Origin: Sipunculus nudus
Lineage: Eukaryota; Annelida; Sipuncula; Golfingiida; Sipunculidae
DNA length: 64,000 nt
Reading direction: 5' to 3'
Assembly: GCA_026874595.1 (NCBI GenBank)
Contig: CM049314.1
Location: forward strand, 24,935,729 to 24,999,728
Shown here: positions 77 to 64,000 of the stretch, in pieces
Layout: every line of letters begins with the position of its first letter
Position numbering within the stretch: position 1 is the stretch's first letter
The notes under the pieces: generated by a model
Database searches by the model: none
Told to the model about the DNA's origin: nothing
What the model saw: the letters and a program-made list of their open reading frames with translations, nothing else
Translations under genes and position numbers: made by a program

Positions 77-1708
77 TCACCTTTTCTTGTCTCTGTCTCC
101 TATCGTCCTTTTGCTGATTCTCTCGTTGTTATAATCCACCAATAGGAGAGCCCCAGAAGCAGAGGCAAGGCCAGTCCGATGTGGTACTTTTGCATATGGT
201 GCCCATTTGTCTTCCTTAATACTGTACAACCATATATCGTCTTCTGTGGCCTGCAAGTGTTCTCGACCCAGTGATAATACGGCTTCCTGGAAGTACAAGA
301 AGTGGCCGACAGAACGGCCAGCTAGGGTTGATGCCAATACTGTCCACTGTTCCGTCTCAATGCTGTAATACTCCATTGGCATCTGTGATTGCTGGTGGTA
401 GCTCTGGACACCGATTCCTCCGACGACATAAATCTGTTTTTCCACTGACACCATGTCATGTAAGCGTCGGGCAAAATGCATTTCAGTCTTGGTTTCCCAG
501 CTGTTGTCTGCTGGGTTCAGCTTCCACAAGTTGGCCGTTGGAAGTCTCTCTTGCCCTGATATCCCACCACTGAGGTAGATCTGCCCATCACAGTATACGG
601 AGGACAACGCCTGGGCAGGCATCGGTAGACGGTCTACGTCCTGCCATCTGTTGGCCACAGCGTCGTAGCATTCTACCCCATCCAGCAAAACATGATGCTC
701 ACTCATACCCCCAAGTATGTACAATTTGTTGCCACTTGCAACAAGAGCTGGATCAATCCTGATCCACTTGCAAGGTTGCAATGTTTGAAGCTCAAGCTGT
801 GTGGGGTCAAACCTCACCATCGAGTTCATGAGGGCACCACCGCCACAATCAACCACACGACAAATATATAAAAAATTATCAATAACTGCTACCCTGCAGT
901 CCCTGCTCCCGCAAATATCACTTACAAGCTGGTAGAATTTTCCTGTTTCATGGTTGTAAGCGGTGATTTCAAAAGGCCTGTATGACGATCCCTGATGTAC
1001 CAGAACTAGAGATTTTTCTTTTGCACGAGGTAGGGCCATCTTTTTGGCGGCTGGAAGCCTGCCTTTAGACTCCCGCCGATACTGGAGTGCTTCTGTGAGG
1101 TAGCGGACTATATTCGGTAGTTTAGCACCCCATAATTGCTGAATCTGGACAAGTTCAAAGTCTGCCAGCAAGCAGAACCTGACCTCTTCTAAAATCTTAC
1201 CAAGTGAATCGTCCGATACTTTGTTATTCAAATACCACCTGCCGATACATTCAATGAGCACCCGATCGGACGGAATCTTGAGATCATCACTAGAGATGTA
1301 CTTCAGCACTTTCTCCTCAGGTAAACTGTAATAAAGTTCAGACCTGCTGAATTCAACAAAATCTTGCAAAACCATATTATCAAAGTACGAGGTCACTTTG
1401 GTCAGTGAATACATGTCAGCCACTTCCAGGAAATCTTCAGCGTTACTGAAGCTGATCTGTGCATTTATGTAGTCACTGCACAGATCCACTGCTGCTGGGA
1501 TCTGCAGATGGCTGGCGGCATTAAGGATTTCCGTAAGGTTCTCCAACGTTACCTCCATCTCACTGCTGTATATAAAATCTATAAGCTGTTCCAGTCCTGA
1601 CCCTGTGACTCCTTTCAGGTCAACCAGCTTTTCTTGATTTTCTTTGGTGGGACTGGTCAACATGGCCCGGAAGTAGTCACTTGTGGCTGCAAGGAGGACT
1701 CTGTGGAC
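77..1708 (-). CDS. KLHL-type BTB-BACK-Kelch protein, large last coding exon
   Basis: This exon encodes the last 543 residues of a Kelch-like protein; joined to the exon at 9141-9281 it makes a 590-residue protein, a normal KLHL length. Seen: the exon opens with VHRVLLAATSDYFRAML, the second half of a BTB fold, followed by a BACK-like helical region (DFLEVADMYSL to about LLADFELVQ) and then Kelch blades with GG doublets (YILGGM, YLSGGI, YVVGGI) and conserved W residues at blade ends. Minus-strand sequence before V is TTTTCTCAG, a good acceptor, so the open frame above 1708 is intron; its apparent start is GTG and is not used. The stop is at 77-79; 3' UTR and poly(A) site lie outside the window. 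Known of the family: most are substrate adaptors of Cullin-3 ubiquitin ligases, with BTB binding CUL3 and Kelch binding substrate. I cannot assign an orthologue. The BTB position usually forming the phi-X-E CUL3 contact reads T-K-E. Confidence 0.95.
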   Translation of the reverse strand, partial: VHRVLLAATSDYFRAMLTSPTKENQEKLVDLKGVTGSGLEQLIDFIYSSEMEVTLENLTEILNAASHLQIPAAVDLCSDYINAQISFSNAEDFLEVADMYSLTKVTSYFDNMVLQDFVEFSRSELYYSLPEEKVLKYISSDDLKIPSDRVLIECIGRWYLNNKVSDDSLGKILEEVRFCLLADFELVQIQQLWGAKLPNIVRYLTEALQYRRESKGRLPAAKKMALPRAKEKSLVLVHQGSSYRPFEITAYNHETGKFYQLVSDICGSRDCRVAVIDNFLYICRVVDCGGGALMNSMVRFDPTQLELQTLQPCKWIRIDPALVASGNKLYILGGMSEHHVLLDGVECYDAVANRWQDVDRLPMPAQALSSVYCDGQIYLSGGISGQERLPTANLWKLNPADNSWETKTEMHFARRLHDMVSVEKQIYVVGGIGVQSYHQQSQMPMEYYSIETEQWTVLASTLAGRSVGHFLYFQEAVLSLGREHLQATEDDIWLYSIKEDKWAPYAKVPHRTGLASASGALLLVDYNNERISKRTIGDRDKKR

Positions 1709-2236
1709 CTGAGAAAATAAAGTAAAACAAATCATGAATGGTAATTCCACCTGAAAATATGAATATTGAATATGAAAATTTAAAGCGGTCTAAGATCTCT
1801 GAACATGCAAAATTTAAGGTCAATAAATCAAACCACTTTTGAGACAACAGGACAGAGGTCACATCAAAAGGACCAGGCATGAGGTCATACATCACCTTGT
1901 AGTGATGTAAAGTTTTGGAAAGTTCTATCTAGCAATTCTAGGAGCAGTGGCCTGTAAATGACAGGAAACCTAGCCAGATATATAGTATCTGTAAAACTCT
2001 GCTTGGCGGATACTCCAATCAATCTAATCTCAATCTGGAATTCTCATCTGGAAATTATATATTTGCTTTGAATCTAATACTTTTATACTTTCAATGTGCA
2101 TTTTCATACTTCCAAAATACTTTTTTTTTTGTTTATGATGCCTGTTACGAAGTTAGAGTGCAAGCCTGGTGCACCAATTTCAAAGATTTGAAAGAGATAT
2201 GATATTCAAATTTAAGGATTATAAAATTATCTTTAA
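1709..2236 (-). other. KLHL intron, part next to the last exon
   Basis: AT-rich intron sequence between the acceptor at 1709 and the first repeat. I see no gene or structured repeat in it. Confidence 0.6.
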
Positions 2237-7410: not shown

Positions 7411-8852
7411 GGTTAACATGGTTTTTCTAGGAGTACAATATGATCTGAGTTAATATTACTTCTAAGGGGAAAATACATAAAGATTTTATACCATCAGACT
7501 TCTGACCAGTTGCCATTATGCTTAACACAGACTTAATGAATTAATCATATATTATCCATGTCACTGGATCTGTGACTATCTTTGTCTACTGATATATCTG
7601 AAATGTAGGGGTGTAACAAAGCATCAAAGTATCCATGCACTGACTTGCAAGCCCTCAAATTTAAATCGAATATCAACCTATGAATTGATTCATTTTGATT
7701 TTTTGTTGGCATGTACCATCCCAAACTCCTCTGTGAGCTCTGGAATCTGACAGAGCAGATTGAGAAAGTTCTTTACCGTGCATGTGAAATCTATAATAAA
7801 CATTTGCTTGTGGACCACTCCACTTGGAATAGAAACATATTTAGCAGCCTTTTTTTATTTAATGGAATTTACTTACATCCATTTGCTAAAATTGCTTTCA
7901 TTTTTTTTAATTCTGAAATTTACTACTCAAGTAAGAATTGAATCGAGAATTGAATTAAAGGAAAAGAATCAAAAATTGAATTGATTCTGAGGGCCCTCAC
8001 AGTTCACAGGCCTACAGAAATGCATGCAGAAAATTTCACGCTAAAAGTAGGCAAACGGTAATGACCACACAAACAATGCATGCTGGGAGTGCCAAAAAAT
8101 CAACTGCTGATTTCAATCATTGAAACAACAATGCCGTTTCCACTCACATGCCTGGATATTGACGACTGCTTACACCAGGAGGGTATTCATTCATCTGTGT
8201 TTGTGTGTTTGTTCACAACATAACTCGCACAATTTTGAACAGACTCATGAAATTTTCAGGGCCTTTCAGGAATGGGCCAATGAAGAATCAACTAGATTTT
8301 GGCTTGGATCTGGCACATGACTCTGTTCAGGAACATCAACAAGGAACATTCACAAATGTACAATCACTTATGCAGGAAAGAACCTTGGAAAATGGACCAA
8401 ACAAGTGATTTCAAACATGACCCGGGGAGCATCCAACAATAGGAACAACCCTCCCCCCACCCCAATGTCAGAGGCTTACATTCTTCAGATTTCTGGTTTT
8501 ATATGATTGTTTAAGTGGTTCTTAGTAATGGGGTATTTTAACTGTGAGACTGTCAATGCAAAGAAACAATGGAAAGTAGGTGGTGAATTGATCTAGATAT
8601 CCCTGCATATTCTTATAACAGAAAATCTCAATCTGGATCATTCAAGTGAGATCATGAAAAGCCTAATAAATTAAATAACTCAAAAGAGTCCCAGAAAGTT
8701 CATGCTTTATGTTTATGTTCATGTTTTTTCTCATATGCACTCTATTTCTGCTTCCCAGCGAGTTAGTGTACCATTAACATGGGATACACAAAAGCTTCAA
8801 TGAATCACATCATCTCTACTCCTCACGCATAGGTTATATGCTTCAGTTGTTA
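7411..8852 (-). other. KLHL intron, unremarkable
   Basis: AT-rich intron DNA. The short open frames near 7711-7984 and 8120-8408 have no recognisable protein features or splice context. I see nothing else. Confidence 0.5.
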
Positions 8853-9089
8853 CAGATCTCCCTTGTTGTAACCGCTGCTTTGTATACAGCTAGTACCTCA
8901 ATTCTGGCACAGGGCCAAGAATCTGACAAACGAGAGCAGGTGTGGCATATTGTAAATTTAGAGTTGGACGCACAATGCGATACCATGCTCTCATTGGTCC
9001 GATCACAATTCTCTTCTCTGTGCCGGGCTCCATGGTGAGACCTAGAGAATCTTGCTATATAAAGTAGCGGTTACAACAAGGGAGATCTG
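8853..9089. mobile_element. Palindromic foldback MITE (about 237 bp)
   Basis: The outer arms are inverted copies: CAGATCTCCCTTGTTGTAAC then CGCTGCTTT on the left (8853-8882) and its near-perfect reverse complement at 9055-9089. The inner arms also pair: ACAAACGAGAGCAGGTGTGG (8925-8945) against the reverse complement of the stretch containing ATACCATGCTCTCATTGGTC (8981-9000). The unpaired loop is only about 17 bases around 8955-8970. There is no coding capacity and no clear target-site duplication. The element ends about 50 bases from the splice donor of the first KLHL coding exon. Its inner arm matches the 32-bp unit of the array at 61208-64000. Confidence 0.8.
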
Positions 9090-9140
9090 AGACGATTGGA
9101 GGAGGAGTCCGCATCTCAACAAGACCCAGACACCTCTCAC

Positions 9141-24610: not shown

Positions 24611-26496
24611 TATAAGAGGAGAAGAAGCGTGTAATACTGCCCTGTCACGTATTCCGAAGCCGAAACGGAATTTTGCGGTTGTATATATACTTAGTTAAGC
24701 AAGCATTAAAAATGGAGGCGGTTATCTGCGACAAAACAATATATAAAAAGCCATAGTATCCTAATTTTGGATTACCACAGAAGTCCTGCATGGATCTTTC
24801 AACATGTGACTTATGATGAGCCATTCGGTAATGATTTGTGCCCTAGTCACTCAGTGAAATCGTTGACGGACAAGTCCTATATGACCGTAGTGCAGATGGC
24901 TTTCAGTAAGCTGAGCTATTAGACATGATGCAAACAATTCTGGCAAATCTCATCGCTTTTTTGCGTCTACCTTTGTATCCACGACGCAAATTGCACAATT
25001 TCTACGGAAAAGAATTTTCTGCACACTCTCATAATGTCTTATCACCAAACAGACACTGACAAAAAGCTGCATGTAAGTTTTAGGAGTCTTGTTTTATTTG
25101 TGAAGAAATAAATATATGTTTATAAAAAAAGTTGTCTTAACTTTGATTACCCTAACCCCCCCCTGCTTTAAGATAAATTGACGCCGCATTTATACCTGAC
25201 AAAGATACTTATCATAAATATTTCACAATACTATTATGATTGATCTGACTATATATTCATCCTAACCACTATATGATATAAAACAGGCTTATAACAATAA
25301 AGTAAATCTAATTAAGCTCCTCACAAGTAGAGAATAACACGTTTGTAATTTTTTTGGTCATAACTGCATGGTCTCGGTGAGGGTGTCAGTGCTGCAGTGT
25401 CTCTCTCCTTCTCCCTCTCCGTCTTCTCGGTCTCCGGTGTGGACAACGACGGCGGTCTGTTGCGGCTCCCTGCTTCGCTTGTGTTGCATTACGTCTATCG
25501 GCTCAATAAAATTTACGCTTAAGTTGCGCACAGGGCTGAAGTCTCAGACTCCAGTAATCTGTAGCTGCTCTAGAAAGCAAAACATCTTCAGTCAGTCATA
25601 TTTATTATTCCACAGATCCTGCAAATATAGTACATGTGGTATATCAACAGTTCGGTCCTTGTGTACTTTTTGAGGGAACACCAGGTTGAATTAAATTTCC
25701 TATATATTAATGTCATATTCAGGGTCAAAGTCTTAGCTGATATCCTTGGTAACAGTTAATGAAGTCGGCAGGGAATCAACAATTAAATCATTTGGACTTC
25801 ATGAGGTAAAGCATCTCCATGACCTAAAACGCAGGGCTACCCCGGAGTTCCTAACTTTACTCTTAACACATATCAATCGTGCACGACTGCATCCTGACTC
25901 ATCTACCATCCTGTCAACCAATCAGAATTAAGTTTATTTGACAAAAAATAATAGTAACAGTTACAAGAGAAGTTATCTTAAACTTTCATTAGTTTGAGTA
26001 ATAATATATTATAAAAAACTTGGTAAGTAACAAAGCCACGCTTGGCATCTAATCGCCCCGAATTAATATAAATGTGACACGTAACAATAACCTGTCATCT
26101 TCAATTGCTCACTGTTCATCGTGTGTTGAATTTATGTACGGATAAGTATTTCGTAACATACGGAGAATACAAGAAGCACAGTAATTCCAATAATGATTGT
26201 GGCAATTAATGTCATGCAACCAATTAAAATGGTTCAAGACATGTAAACGTGTTACTTAAAATATCCAGATTGCAATAATAACAACACTATTAAATTGATT
26301 ATGCTGACATGTGATATATGCGCAGTAAACTTGTTATGAATCATCAGATTATCCTTACTACTCTACACACAGATCCAAGAATGAATATTTTGTTACAAGT
26401 GTTTAGTCGTTAAAATTACAGTAGACAGAACAAGAAAAGTATTTTCTCAGTAAACAGGGTAACCTTCTACCCTCGGATACGGCCATACACGATAGG
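24611..26496. other. Intergenic with a GC-richer patch near 25.37-25.50 kb
   Basis: The patch 25368-25500 is clearly GC-richer than its surroundings and contains a 43-codon minus-strand ATG frame (25368-25497) with a Glu/Gly-rich middle. I found no splice partner or family resemblance, so it is only a weak exon or promoter candidate. The remainder is AT-rich and featureless. Confidence 0.25.
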
Positions 26497-26624
26497 TGTC
26501 TATAGGTCTTTACCACATGTCTATCACGTGTCTATAGGTCTTTACCATTGGTCTAACAATTGTTTATAGGTTTTTACCTTAGGTCTACCACGTGTCTATA
26601 GGTCTTTACCATAGGTCTACCAAG
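26497..26624. repeat. Four-unit 32-bp minisatellite
   Basis: The word TGTCTATAGGTCTTTACC (or TGTTTATAGG) starts at 26497, 26529, 26561 and 26593, exactly 32 bases apart. Each unit continues with a GGTCTANCA block ending in ACG, AAT or AAG. Noncoding. Confidence 0.93.
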
Positions 26625-31559: not shown

Positions 31560-32806
31560 TTATTGATTATTTGGTATTTCAGGATTTTGTGGAGCAACAG
31601 CTGCATTCTGGGTAATATTTGTACAATCAGAAGTGAAAAACAAACGTATCACTCTCAGCTTTTCAAGAATGATGATTTTCAGTCCCCGTCGGAAAACCTT
31701 GATGTTCCAGGCGTAAATCACTGGGTTCACAGCACTTTGAAGGGTGAGAAGAGCACTTGTAAACTCCAGAAGAGCGTAAGTTTCGGACTGATCGATAGCA
31801 CCAGACAAATTAAATGCAGTAACGATCCATGGCGGACACAGAGTGACTACAAATAGCACCGCAACAGCTGCGCCCACGCGAGCGGTCATAATCGTCTTCT
31901 TTTGATGTGTGGACGGTCCCGTTTCTGGATGGACCATTGTGTTTATCATATGTATATGCCGAACGCAGCATAGAATGTAACATATAAGTGTTATGGATAG
32001 GCATATGCACATCAATCCTCCTTGATAGAACCAGCCTTGCAACCAAGGAGGCCAGTCGCTTCTTCTGTCATCCGTAATCATCAAGCAAGCTTTGAAATCG
32101 TCGGAGTTTGGGTCCATTCTTAGCGAAGCTACTGTGACGCTACCACAAAACGCTACGCATCCCACAATGCACACTTCCGTCTTCGTCACCTTCCGTACAT
32201 GCACACTGGAGATTGCCAACAGACGCAGGATTGACACAGAGGCGATACAGATAACAGAGCAGTTGACAGATGTGATAGCAAAAAATTGTTCCAAGCCGCA
32301 CAAAACTACACTTATCGGCAAATGTTTGTGAACATTTGTCAAACGAATTAAATTCAAAGGAACCGCCAGGTGGCACATCAAAATATCACTGGCGGCCATG
32401 ATGACGACCACTGCGTTAAATGGTTTATGAAGCTCCTTTCTCGCTGCCACACACCATATCGCTAACCAGTTACCAAAGCCACCAAGCATCACAATAGCGT
32501 AGATTCCAAACGCCAATCCGACCGTCGTAGGGAACAGCTGATTCTGGTTACTCTCCCTTACTCCTTGTGGAGTGGTACCATTTGCTGGCCATTCAGTCGA
32601 GTTGATCATGGTAGTGGTCATGGTGAAGTTTTCCACAGGTATCTGTATATAAAGTGACAATGATGTTATATCAATGTTTGTTATCATAGTTATATTCACT
32701 AACATATTACCTTTTGTTGGGGCATATATGGGGGGCTTCTCGCGGGACAGCCTTTCCACGGGTCGAGTGGAGATGGGCCGAGTTCACTGGTGATCCGATA
32801 TGTCAT
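31560..32806 (-). CDS. Rhodopsin-like (class A) GPCR, orphan
   Basis: Seven-transmembrane receptor expected at the plasma membrane, coupling to G proteins. My model has two exons: 32711-32806 (32 residues, ATG at 32804-32806, in-frame TGA just upstream) and 31560-32642, split by a 68-bp AT-rich intron (GTAATAT...TATACAG), giving 392 residues. Seen, in that numbering: GN of TM1 at 89-90, D118 in MAASD of TM2, C147 before TM3, C218 in extracellular loop 2, CPPW in TM6 at 301-304 and NPVIY of TM7 at 338-342. Glycosylation-like NFT, NST and NGT sites lie in the N-terminus. The TM3 end reads L-R-L where most relatives have D-R-Y, and TM6 has CPPW rather than CWxP. If the intron is retained, an ATG at 32703-32705 gives a 381-residue single-exon form. 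Ligand and subfamily are not recognisable. Confidence 0.88.
32643..32710 (-). other. Predicted 68-bp intron in the GPCR gene
   Basis: Minus-strand sequence AACAAAAG precedes GTAATATG and CTTTATATACAG precedes ATACCTGTGG. The segment is much more AT-rich than the DNA on both sides. Removing it joins the exon-1 frame (phase 0) to the receptor frame. The polypyrimidine tract is weak, so retention remains possible. Confidence 0.55.
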
Positions 32807-55624: not shown

Positions 55625-55925
55625 TAAACCTACACTCTAAGAACGAAAGGTGCTTCAAAGAACTCAATAGGGTTCTTTAAGTTGTCACAAATATGGAACC
55701 CTATTTGGCTATTTAAAGAACCGTAGGTAGGGTTCATTCAAAGAACCCTATGATAGGTTTCTTTAAAACAACCTTAGGTTTCTTTTATTGAACTCTATCA
55801 TAGGGTTCTTTAAAACACCCCAACGGTTCTTAAATAGAACCCTTTGATAGGGTTCTTTAAAACCCTTTCAGGGTTTTTTAATAGAACCTTATAATAGGGT
55901 TCTTTAAAAAACCTACAGTTCTGAA
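55625..55925. mobile_element. Cluster of AAGAACCC/GGGTTCTT inverted words
   Basis: About ten alternating copies of GGGTTCTTTAAA and GAACCCTATNATAGG-type words form overlapping small palindromes; the cluster begins ACACTCTAAGAACGAAAGG. The same vocabulary appears at 26875-27010. Likely debris of a non-autonomous DNA transposon that expanded internally. No coding capacity. Confidence 0.65.
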
Positions 55926-60087: not shown

Positions 60088-60545
60088 CGGAAGCTGTCAA
60101 GTGGGCTGAGCAGCTCTGTCGGAAGCTGTCAAGTGGGCTGAGCAGCTCTGTCGGAAGCTGTCAAGTGGGCTGAGCAGCTCTGTCGGAAGCTGTCAAGTGG
60201 GCTGAGCAGCTCTGTCGGAAGCTGTCAAGTGGGCTGAGCAGCTCTGCCGGAAGCTGTCAAGTGGGCTGAGCAGCTCTGCCGGAAGCTATCAAGTGGGCTG
60301 AGCAGCTCTGTCGGAAGCTGTCAAGTGGGCTTAGCACCTCTGCCGGAAAACTGTCAAGTGGGCTGAGCAGCTCTGTCAGAAGCTGTCAAGTGGGCTGAGC
60401 AGCTCTGTCGGAAGCTGTCATGTGGGCTGAGCAGCTTTGTCGGAAGCTGTCACGTGGGCTGAGCAGCTTTGTCGGAAGCTATCAAGTGGGCTGAGCAGCT
60501 CTGTTGGAAGCTGTCACATGGGGCTGAGCAGCTCATGTTGTTCTT
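60088..60545. repeat. 32-bp minisatellite, about 14 units
   Basis: Unit CGGAAGCTGTCAAGTGGGCT plus GAGCAGCTCTGT, starting at 60088, 60120, 60152, 60184 and onward. Early units are identical; later ones carry substitutions and one- or two-base indels (for example near 60342). The first unit is continuous with the ORF remnant before it, and one frame reads AVKWAEQLCRK, so the array probably amplified the end of that ORF. The period is not a multiple of three, so it is not a protein repeat. Confidence 0.95.
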
Positions 60546-61207
60546 CCATGAAAATAAATAGCGAGCTTGTTGACCCCTTCGCTATTGGAGAGACTCTTTC
60601 TTCTCGCAAGCATGTGCGTGTTAACTGTCATAACAGGAAGTCTGCCCTTGAATTCTTTTTTATCCCCCAGTAGAACTTGTAATAAAGACTCTTTCAGATT
60701 CAGTGTTTGATATAAATGCGATCAGATTATGAAACTATATTTGATATGATGCATAAGTGTATACTGGAAATGTGTTATTCATGAAACATGAAAAGAAAAA
60801 CATTCTGACACATTGTATGCAAATTCATTTCATTTATTTACCATCACATCAAATTACACATGTAAATACATTCGGGGGTTATTACAAACTACATGTAACA
60901 CACAGATCTTACTATGATGCAATTTATATTTTTATTTGATAGGCATAAAGATGGTCTAATATGTATACTCCCGTCATACATGTCTTCTAGGTTTGTACAG
61001 TTCTTAAAATTTCAGAACATGTCTAATAAGACCAACTGTTAATAACGACCCCTTGAGCCCAGTACCTTGGGTGGTAGCATGAGACAGGTTCGACTGTACC
61101 CCGAGAAAGGTCTTCTGAGCACGTATCTCACTCAGCTGCTGAACACGGCAGTCTGACTACATCAAGATACCCTCTCTAGTTTGTCTGATTTTAGCCCTGT
61201 TCCCAAA
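60546..61207. other. Spacer between two arrays
   Basis: Begins with an ATG-less continuation of the preceding frame (ending before 60674) and then AT-rich DNA. From about 61030 GC rises and words such as TTGTCTGATTTTAGCC (61180) resemble the array junction at about 62462-62474. Confidence 0.4.
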
Positions 61208-64000
61208 CCGATGTAATCGGACTTACGAAAGCGGGTGTCCTAGTGTAACCAGACCAACGAAAGCGGGGGTCCTAGTGTAATCAGACCAACAAGAGCGGGT
61301 GTCCTGGTGTAATCAGACCAACGAGAGCGGGTGTCCTGGTGTAATCAGACCAAAGAGAGCGGATGTCTCTGTGTAATCAGACTAACGAGAGCGGGTGTCC
61401 TGGTGTAATCAGACTAACGACAGCGGGTGTCCAGGTGTAATCGGACTAACGACAGCGGGTGTCCTGGTGTAATCAGAGCAACGAGAGCGGGTGTCCTGGT
61501 GTAACCTGACCAACGAGAGCGGATGTCTCGGTGTAAGCAGTCCAACGAGAGCGGGTGTCTCTTTTTAATCAGACTAACGAGAGCGGGTGTCTCTTTGTAA
61601 TCAGACTATCGAGAGCGGGTGTCCTGGTGTTATCAGACCAACGAGAGCAGGTGTCCTGGTGTAACCAGGCCAACGAAAGCGGGTGTCCTAGTGTTATCAG
61701 ACCAACAAGAGCGGGTGTCCTGGTGTAATCAGACCAACAAGAGCGGGTGTCCTGGTGTAAGCAGACCAACGAGAGCGGGTGTCCTAATGTAATCAGACCA
61801 ACGAGAGCGGATGTCTCTGTGTAATCAGACTAACGAGAGCGGTTGTCTCTGTGTAATCAGACTAACGAGAGCGGGTGTCTCTGTGTAATCAGACTAACGA
61901 GAGCGGATGTCTCTTTGTAATCAGACTAACGAGACCGGATGTCTCTGTGTAATCAGACCAACGAGAGCGGATGTCTCTGTGTAATCAGACTAACGAGAGC
62001 GGGTGTCTCTGCGAATCAGACCATCGAGAGCGGGTGTCTCGGTGTATAAGCAGTCCAACGAGAGCGGATGTCCTGGTGTAATCAGACGAACTAGCGGGTG
62101 TCCTGGTGTAATCAGACCAACGAGAGCGGCTGTCTCTGTGTAATCAGACTAACGAGAGCGGGTGTCTCTGTGTAATCTAACCATCGAGAGCGGGTGTGTC
62201 GGTGTATAAGCAGTCCAACGAGAGCGGATGTCCTGGTGTAATCAGACGAACTAGCGGGTGTCCTGGTGTAATTAGACCAACGAGAGCGGCTGTCTCTGTG
62301 TAATCAGACTAACCTTAGCGAATGTCTCTGTGTTATCAGACTAACAAGGGCGGGTGTCTCGGTGCAAACAGACCAACCAGAGCGGGTGTGACAATTTGGA
62401 ACTGGATGCACAATGTTATACCACGCTCTTTATTGGCCTGATTACAATTTTCTGCTACGTGTCTGATTTTAATCAGACCAACGAGAGCGGGTGTCCTTGT
62501 GTAATCAGACCAACGAGAGCGGATGTCTCGGTGTAAGCAGTCCAACGAGAGCGGGTGCATCTTTTTAATCAGACTAACGAGAGCGGGTGTCTCTTTGTTA
62601 TCAGACTATCGAGATCGGGTGTCCTGGTGTAATAAGACCAACGAGAGCGGGTGTCCTGGTCTAATAAGACCAACGAGAGCAAATGTCTCGGTGTGAGCAG
62701 TCAAACGAGAGCGGATGTTTTGGTCTAATCAGACCAACAAGAGCGGGTGTCCTAGTGCAATCAGAACAACGAGAGCGGTTGTCTATGTGTAATCAGACTA
62801 ACGAGAGCGGGTGTCTCTGTGTAATGTGACTTACGAAAACGGGTTTCTCTGTGTAATCAGATTAACGAGAGCGAGTGTCTCTGTGTAATCAGACTACCGA
62901 GAGCGGGTGTCTCTGTGTAATCAGACTAACGAGAGCGGGTGTCTGTATAATCAGACCAACGAGAGCGGGTGTCTCTGTGTAATCAGACTAACGAGAGCGG
63001 TTGTTTATGTGTAATCAGACTAACGAGAGCGGGTGTCTCTGTGTAATGTGACTAACGATAGCGGGTGTCTCTGTGTAATCAGACTAACGAGAGCGAGTGT
63101 CTCTGTGTAATCAGACTACCGAGAGCGGGTGTCTCTGTATAATCAGACCAACGAGAGCGGGTGTCTCTGTGTAATCAGACCAACGAGAGCGGATGTCTCG
63201 GTGTGAGCAGTCAAACGAGAGCGGATGTTTTGGTCTAATCAGACCAACGAGAGCGGGTGTCCTAGTGCAATCAGAACAACGAGAGCGGTTGTCTATGTGT
63301 AATCAGACTAACGAGAGCGGGTGTCTCTGTGTAATGTGACTTACGAAAACGGGTTTCTCTGTGTAATCAGATTAACGAGAGCGAGTGTCTCTGTGTAATC
63401 AGACTACCGAGAGCGGATGTCTCTGTGTAATCAGACTACCGAGAGCGGGTGTCTCTGTGTAATCAGACCAACGAGAGCGGATTTCTCGGTGTAAGCAGTC
63501 CAACGAGAGCGGGTGTCCTGGTGTAATCAGACCATCGAGAGCGGATGTCTCTGTGTAATCAGACTAACGAGAGCGGATGTCTCGGTGTGAGCAGTCAAAC
63601 GAGAGCGGATGTTTTGGTCTAATCAGACCAACGAGAGCGGGTGTCCTAGTGCAATCAGAACAACGAGAGCGGTTGTCTATGTGTAATCAGACTAACGAGA
63701 GCGGGTGTCTCTGTGTAATGTGACTTACGAAAACGGGTTTCTCTGTGTAATCAGATTAACGAGAGCGAGTGTCTCTGTGTAATCAGACTACCGAGAGCGG
63801 ATGTCTCTGTGTAATCAGACTACCGAGAGCGGATGTCTCTGTGTAATCAGACCATCGAGAGCGGATGTCTCTGTGTAATCAGTCCAACGAGAGCGGGTGT
63901 CCTGGTGTAATCAGACCATCGAGAGCGGATGTCTCTGTGTAATCAGACTAACGAGGGCGGGTGTCTCGGTGTAAGCAGTCCAACGAGAGCGGGTGTCCTG
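61208..64000. repeat. Large 32-bp satellite array, runs off the window
   Basis: Unit near AATCAGACCAACGAGAGCGG plus GTGTCCTGGTGT, 32 bases, repeated about 85 times by length. Two main subtypes exist: one with TCCTGGTGTAATCAGACCAA and one with TCTCTGTGTAATCAGACTAA. Rarer variants such as GTGTGAGCAGTCAAAC, GTAATGTGACTTACGAAAAC and GTATAAGCAGTCC mark longer duplicated blocks. All units share one strand orientation except the island at 62385-62475. The unit matches an arm of the MITE at 8853-9089. All frames crossing it are period artefacts. Confidence 0.97.
62385..62475. mobile_element. MITE centre retained inside the satellite
   Basis: After a normal AGAGCGGGTGT the sequence leaves the 32-bp pattern: ATTTGGAACTGGATGCACAA, TTATACCACGCTCTTTATTG and GCCTGATTACAATTTTCTGC. 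This parallels 8939-9020 in the intronic MITE block for block (ATTTAGAGTTGGACGCACAA, CGATACCATGCTCTCATTGG, TCCGATCACAATTCTC). It is thus the loop plus opposite arm of the palindrome; the satellite pattern resumes at about 62472. Confidence 0.85.

Follow-up and report, generated by a model that had tools for sequence, protein, structure and literature searches.

A 32-bp tandem array in Sipunculus nudus is probably the expanded stem arm of a non-autonomous foldback DNA transposon

The FB elements of Drosophila are foldback elements with short direct repeats inside their inverted repeats. In Xenopus, the MITE Xstir was reportedly described by Hikosaka and Kawahara in 2004, and miDNA4 is said to go back to Scalvenzi and Pollet in 2014. 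According to the excerpted text of a source on these elements, Xstir occurs as a MITE, as a tandem array, and as MITE-array composites, with repeats that possibly derive from internal MITE sequence; miDNA4 is a MITE holding either one monomer or a variable-length array, and in the model given there, the arrays become satellites as the ends decay (PMC12628747). Tetris/TIR-220 of Drosophila virilis, as far as the excerpt on it goes, is a non-autonomous foldback element with tandem repeats inside its inverted repeat. These repeats share a 37-bp stretch with the outer part of the inverted repeat, vary in copy number (3 versus 4 between alleles), and form arrays of up to 66 copies that have arisen inside the element; target-site repeats are 8 to 10 bp long, a Mutator affiliation is suggested, and unequal crossing-over is proposed (PMC4079207). 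A bacterial MITE with an internal minisatellite is also described, again in excerpted text (PMC4596501). Satellite DNA typically forms long arrays that stand free of other elements and lie in heterochromatin, and the start of a satellite is usually argued from end products.

The window analyzed here is a stretch of 64,000 nucleotides of the S. nudus genome (G000:C9:24935729-24999728), and all genome searches were run against the assembly of 1.43 Gb in 153 contigs. Tandem Repeats Finder placed a 32-bp tandem array from 61212 up to the window end. Sequence beyond that end came from a flanking piece, L009, for which the window position equals 60271 plus the L009 position; coordinates past the window end are termed virtual. 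Inside the window (61212 to 64000), this home array comprises 85 units and a 3-nt start piece (86 pieces), in agreement with the original prediction of about 85 units. The array was also predicted to run to 64000, and it does fill the window to that point, but it continues to virtual 64346 (L009 4075) and holds 96 units (97 pieces) as a whole.

Far to the left in the same window lies a one-unit copy of a foldback/MITE family, with the following parts:

8815-9101, plus strand: one-unit foldback/MITE copy, from alignment, module mapping, and folding
8818-8886, plus strand: left terminal inverted repeat (TIR)
8902-8921, plus strand: spacer S1
8920-8943, plus strand: arm+
8945-8984, plus strand: loop
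8987-9007, plus strand: arm−
9008-9053, plus strand: spacer S2
9054-9101, plus strand: right TIR, positions 1 to 48 of 74 only

The segment 8815-9105 folds back at −68.1 kcal/mol versus −32.0 kcal/mol for shuffles (z = −9.7). A foldback of 237 bp at 8853-9089 had been proposed, and strong folding bears it out, but the element is longer (about 8815-9101) and its right TIR is cut. It had also been taken for an intact parent copy, whereas we find a diverged one-unit relative. The array unit is homologous to an internal part of this element. Its consensus aligned to the MITE with a score of 33 (best of 1000 dinucleotide shuffles, 23), and the segment 62365-62475, inside the array, aligned to 8853-9089 with a score of 61, far better than shuffled sequence (best of 1000 dinucleotide shuffles, 28). 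These scores uphold the proposed core match between the 32-bp unit and the MITE arm, and the 32-mer core is present in MITE copies elsewhere in the genome. The loop and opposite arm that were predicted inside the array are likewise there, in the right order and orientation; about 62390-62461 aligns to the window element over 94 columns at 72% identity. By sequence homology, the 32-bp unit can be identified as the stem arm of a foldback/MITE family that is dispersed in the genome.

The anatomy of this family was read from 39 aligned and mapped copies, namely, the window copy and the 38 loci nearest to the window MITE. The longest copies (e.g., L004, L012, and L029) show, in part or whole, the order TIR, S2′, arm+, loop, arm−, S1, arm+, loop, arm−, S2, TIR, and S1 is present in both orientations among the mapped copies. 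As read from these copies, the 32-bp register consists of CCGG (the end of S1 in minus orientation), the 27-bp arm TGTAATCAGACCAACGAGAGCGGGTGT, and C (the first loop base). The commonest linkers are CTCGG, CTCTG, CTCAG, CACGG, and CCTGG, which we read as decay of CCCGG. The family is short, dispersed, and present in many copies, with 2162, 5348, and 3732 first-look candidates in three genome searches, of which 40 were scored in each. A right TIR was found in 38 of the 39 one-unit copies, a left TIR in 17, and TIRs at both ends in 17. Among the two-ended copies, 12 end pairs with both TIRs (287 to 481 bp) were inspected for flanking repeats: three had exact repeats of 7 to 9 bp, three had 9-bp repeats with one mismatch, three had 7- to 8-bp repeats with one mismatch, and three had none. 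At least 8/9 identity was reached by 4 of the 12 pairs, versus 1.15% of random pairs. The array at C9:20406 had no target-site repeat (best match, 6/9). Given the long TIRs and end repeats of about 8 to 9 bp, the superfamily is probably Mutator-like.

A left TIR was absent from 22 of the 39 one-unit copies and 16 of the 20 two-unit copies (L001-L041 and L072-L091), the two-unit pieces being only about 500 bp, so that some left ends may be cut off. Many half elements start near S1 with unrelated sequence upstream, which may point to a hot spot of deletion or to a left end of an alternative kind. A plain cut-and-paste element leaves the missing left TIR in 22 of 39 copies unexplained, and this counts against a foldback-transposon account.

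The same modules surround the home array. To its right, with no gap, follow the loop, the opposite arm, spacer S2, a GCTATATAAGCAGCG stretch that closely resembles that of the window MITE, and the right end. The home element is about 3.4 kb long (61120 to virtual 64503), and its contiguous center and right end, from virtual 64337 onwards, lie outside the window:

61111-61119, plus strand: left direct repeat TCTTCTGAG; partner TCTTTTGAG at virtual 64504-64512; 8/9 identical
61120-61165, minus strand: degenerate left TIR of the home element; best match, 61127-61153
61166-61190, minus strand: single minus-strand arm unit, left of spacer S1
61189-61214, minus strand: spacer S1 in minus orientation, immediately to the left of the array
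61212-62389, plus strand: array block a, with 37 units of 32 bp, of which the last is truncated at the loop
62390-62461, plus strand: duplicated center (loop, opposite arm, first bases of S2)
62470-64000 and on to virtual 64346, plus strand: array block b, 59 units in all
After block b, up to virtual 64503, outside the window: contiguous loop, opposite arm, S2, and right end

The left TIR is weak (score, 30; 5 of 1000 shuffles as good), and the right TIR scored 40 (0 of 1000 shuffles as good); S1 left of the array scored 29, versus 23 for the best of 1000 shuffles. The repeat at the element ends was first spotted by eye and has one mismatch; matches of at least 8/9 arise by chance in 1.15% of random window pairs when all 81 offsets tried are allowed, and in 0.05% when a single offset is used. 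Since TIRs, S1, a minus arm, the loop, S2, and end repeats all stand around the array, we conclude that the home array makes up the interior of a single element about 3.4 kb long.

Several further features occur in the neighborhood. A second array with a 32-bp period and another unit, CGGAAGCTGTCAAGTGGGCTGAGCAGCTCTGT, occupies 60088-60534 (13.9 copies, 93% matches; Tandem Repeats Finder) and ends about 0.6 kb short of the array-bearing element, on its left side. At 26496-26622, four copies of yet another 32-bp unit form a third such tandem repeat, and the unit of a short array at 55715-55914, AAAGAACCCTATATAGGGTTCTTTA, looks palindromic. About 2.2 kb right of the array-bearing element stands a 363-amino-acid open frame with a rhodopsin-type 7TM receptor domain (minus strand, L009:6430-7518; virtual 66701-67789). 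The window also holds a second rhodopsin-type 7TM receptor frame of 399 amino acids (31560-32759, minus strand) and a BTB-BACK-Kelch frame of 557 amino acids (77-1750, minus strand).

The original prediction treated 62385-62475 as the fossil center left behind when one arm expanded. It is one of two centers, however, and the contiguous one still stands at the right edge of the array. Of 102 positions, 98 are the same in both centers, and the same 8 bp are deleted in both relative to the MITE. The six units that follow the interior segment (62470-62659) find their best match at 61468-61657, at an edit distance of 13, compared with 26 for the next best place elsewhere and a median of 35.5. A tandem duplication of about 1 kb, from near 61468 through the center, explains these correspondences, and we reject the leftover fossil. 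The units flanking this segment had also been expected to lie closest to the MITE arm; in closeness to the family arm, however, the five units beside it are outranked by 83, 75, 75, 6, and 75 of the 94 complete units, so that four of the five have at least 75 units ahead of them. An element center inside an array can thus be a duplicated edge, which corrects a tempting misreading of such segments as fossils.

Elsewhere in the genome, 25 other array loci were found among the matches listed (of 449), which with the home array gives 26 arrays; the query behind this list contains the loop, so loop-bearing arrays may be over-represented. In the pieces read, 21 of the 26 arrays have element modules at their edges, and in eight the modules stand on both sides. 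At C1:45046 and C5:88342, the loop and opposite arm appear in four-unit-query alignments that were not read base by base, which raises the count to 23 of 26. C12:68527 had no module at either end in the flanks read; at C15:22228 and C1:34278, one end was reached and carried no module. As a control, 81 window pieces of 620 bp contained one chance module. The eight arrays read at length are dispersed and span 0.6 to 3.9 kb. Each of the seven other than the home array has an element module right at an edge: S1 lies directly left of the array at C2, C3 (by eye), C5, C8, and C13b, and the loop lies directly right of it at C12, C13a, C2, and C3; the C12 array read at length has both TIRs. An exact junction pattern had 56 matches in 8 arrays (reversed control, 0).

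Within two of the long arrays, G000:C3:57624573-57628090 and G000:C13:36742326-36747283, matches come in pairs with a fixed spacing of about 1.57 kb and about 1.13 kb, respectively, which suggest large recent tandem duplications inside these arrays.

Between the one-unit MITE and the long arrays, copies with intermediate unit numbers were recovered. At the threshold used, tandem units were absent from all 39 copies closest to the window MITE. A query composed of two units, the loop, the opposite arm, and S2 (best 40 of 5348 candidates scored) aligned to both units at 28 of the 40 scored places, one of which is the long C13:36428 array. Twenty of these 28 places were fetched: 18 have two units, L082 has four, and L091 has one, with a degenerate second unit visible by eye. 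From a four-unit query (best 40 of 3732 candidates scored), nine new places were chosen and about 350 nt of each was read. Three units each were counted in L132 and L133, about five in L126, about eight in L131, and at least 10 each in L125, L127, L128, L129, and L130, each with its own unit variant. With cut units included, the arrays hold 20 units at C8:13168, 36 at C13:36428, 38 at C5:75503, 39 at C12:30035, 44 at C2, 96 at the home locus, 112 at C3, and at least 121 at C13:36742. MITEs with two, three, and four arm repeats, which the idea of an arm-derived satellite had led one to look for, are therefore found together with higher numbers. A single family in one chromosome-scale assembly shows 1, 2, 3, 4, about 5, about 8, at least 10, 20, about 40, 96, and about 120 units, a ladder that lets the birth of satellite DNA be traced stepwise.

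One three-unit copy, L132 (G000:C3:39948540-39948890), also has two tandem minus units across S1; the mirror-image arm can evidently duplicate too.

Unit relationships were examined in 493 complete units from eight loci, cut by wraparound alignment. The nearest neighbor of a unit lay in its own locus in 87% of cases versus 17% with permuted labels (maximum of 200 permutations, 22%). In two arrays, the units are almost uniform (mean edits, 0.94 and 1.80), and the others are mixed (up to 6.1). Unit variants in the family are thus specific to their locus, and young uniform arrays exist alongside old mixed ones. Block duplications are visible in the home array, where unit distances are lowest at lags of 12 and 28 in block b and at a lag of 5 in block a. 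Two-unit copies were compared separately in 19 copies, with L082 left out; the fixed 25-nt slices used misalign copies with indels. The distance within a copy was 6.6 of 25, versus 7.1 to 7.7 between copies (41 of 5000 permutations as low). We rejected a separate duplication in each two-unit copy, as within-copy and between-copy distances are about the same, with a slight within-copy excess remaining. Since units differ nearly as much within a copy as between copies, we read the two-unit state as an old duplication. The first duplication is probably also older than the home insertion, since the home array and the dispersed two-unit copies have the 32-bp register in common.

A tree of the loop-to-TIR region (126 columns) was poorly resolved, with 4 of 76 inner branches well supported. 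No single clade of array-bearing elements was recovered on this tree: six rows from five loci were scattered and required five changes, a number that 65 of 500 shuffles matched or undercut. With three more array-locus rows included, seven changes were needed.

We consider it very probable that the array arose by expansion of a stem arm within a non-autonomous foldback DNA transposon, which spread in few-unit form and was then enlarged locus by locus. The arm between S1 and the loop was duplicated in tandem in the 32-bp register, as read from the copies, with hairpin stalling as a possible trigger of the first duplication. Two- or few-unit copies are dispersed, most likely through transposition. 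At single loci, the run of units would then have grown to 20 to 121, each locus in its own way, as shown by own-locus likeness and block duplications, and the growth process may have been unequal exchange or slippage. In the home element, exchange would have duplicated the center as well, producing the interior "fossil." Modules on one side only, as observed at some arrays, may mark a step toward a free-standing satellite. The register in common and the separate local unit variants both fit a history in which an early duplication was followed by the spread of few-unit copies and by repeated expansion at individual loci, and the explanation implies no host function.

A bolder extension, which we regard as possible rather than likely, is that the stem of a foldback element is an engine of satellite birth, such that hairpin-driven tandem duplication would be recurrent in the family and not one accident. 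This reading draws on the duplicated segment, which runs almost exactly from hairpin base to tip, and on the expansion of the same arm position at separate loci with their own variants. On visual inspection, the stem extends a few bases beyond the 3′ end of the unit, so the borders of the duplication and the ends of the stem are close, if inexact.

Other histories have to be weighed against expansion of the arm within a spreading transposon. In the version originally predicted, a one-unit palindromic MITE inserted at the home locus and one of its arms grew, leaving the center at 62385-62475 as a fossil. The homology of array and center to the MITE agrees with this, as does the real growth at single loci. 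It is nevertheless quite unlikely, given the contiguous center and right end at virtual 64337 onwards with the interior copy in a duplication of about 1 kb, the dispersed two-unit copies with the same register, and the units flanking the interior segment, which are not closest to the MITE arm. An arm did expand here, but a one-step birth of the array at this locus is not supported. A reversed course, in which an ancestral element had a long array and the one- to five-unit copies are deletion products, strikes us as unlikely. Shrinkage of an internal array is described for DTC84 of Donax in the excerpted text of PMC5139131, the units of two-unit copies are old and diverged, and some contraction is likely in any case, yet two young, uniform arrays show growth, and at the other arm positions only one arm is present. 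With the linker being a piece of S1, this last observation is also why we favor growth over shrinkage, although the loop-to-TIR tree and the present data alone are compatible with both.

The single, inverted arm at other arm positions and the origin of the linker in the element's own spacer S1 also weigh against a pre-existing 32-bp repeat that was captured by the MITE and gave rise to its arms, as does the finding that 0 of the 39 nearest copies have tandem units. We judge such a satellite-first order very improbable, even though one array lacks modules in the flanks read and capture is proposed for miDNA4 of Xenopus in the excerpted part of PMC12628747. Hardly credible at all is a carrier of the Helitron or Helentron type with a central tandem array, as in oysters. 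Carriers of this kind are known in bivalves (PMC7492417, from an excerpt), and many copies here do miss the left TIR (22/39); however, a Helitron or Helentron would have no TIRs and no target-site duplication, whereas 17 of the 39 copies have TIRs at both ends, plus flanking direct repeats. A non-autonomous foldback transposon with an expanded arm is thus the reading we retain, and its ladder of unit numbers would allow a direct test of which step is limiting: first duplication, transposition, local expansion, or end loss.

Precedents for the passage from transposon to satellite exist in Tetris, Xstir, and miDNA4, and the ladder found here is unusually full. By description, the Drosophila FB elements resemble the present family in combining a foldback structure with short direct repeats. 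The pearl family and DTC84 of bivalves can also be set beside it by description, with arrays that are, in the excerpted account, much shorter than those found here (PMC5139131). Xstir, as excerpted, is alike in comprising a MITE, an array, and composites of the two, in a different host and a different element. For miDNA4, which is of the Tc1/mariner type, the available excerpt proposes capture of a pre-existing repeat, whereas the unit described here is native to its element. The nearest precedent is Tetris, likened here by its excerpted description, which shares the foldback carrier, the internal tandem repeats, and their variable number. Its unit is 220 bp long, compared to 32 bp here, and unlike in Tetris as so described, the unit in S. 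nudus consists of a hairpin arm plus a spacer edge and occurs in runs of 1 to about 121 within one assembly.
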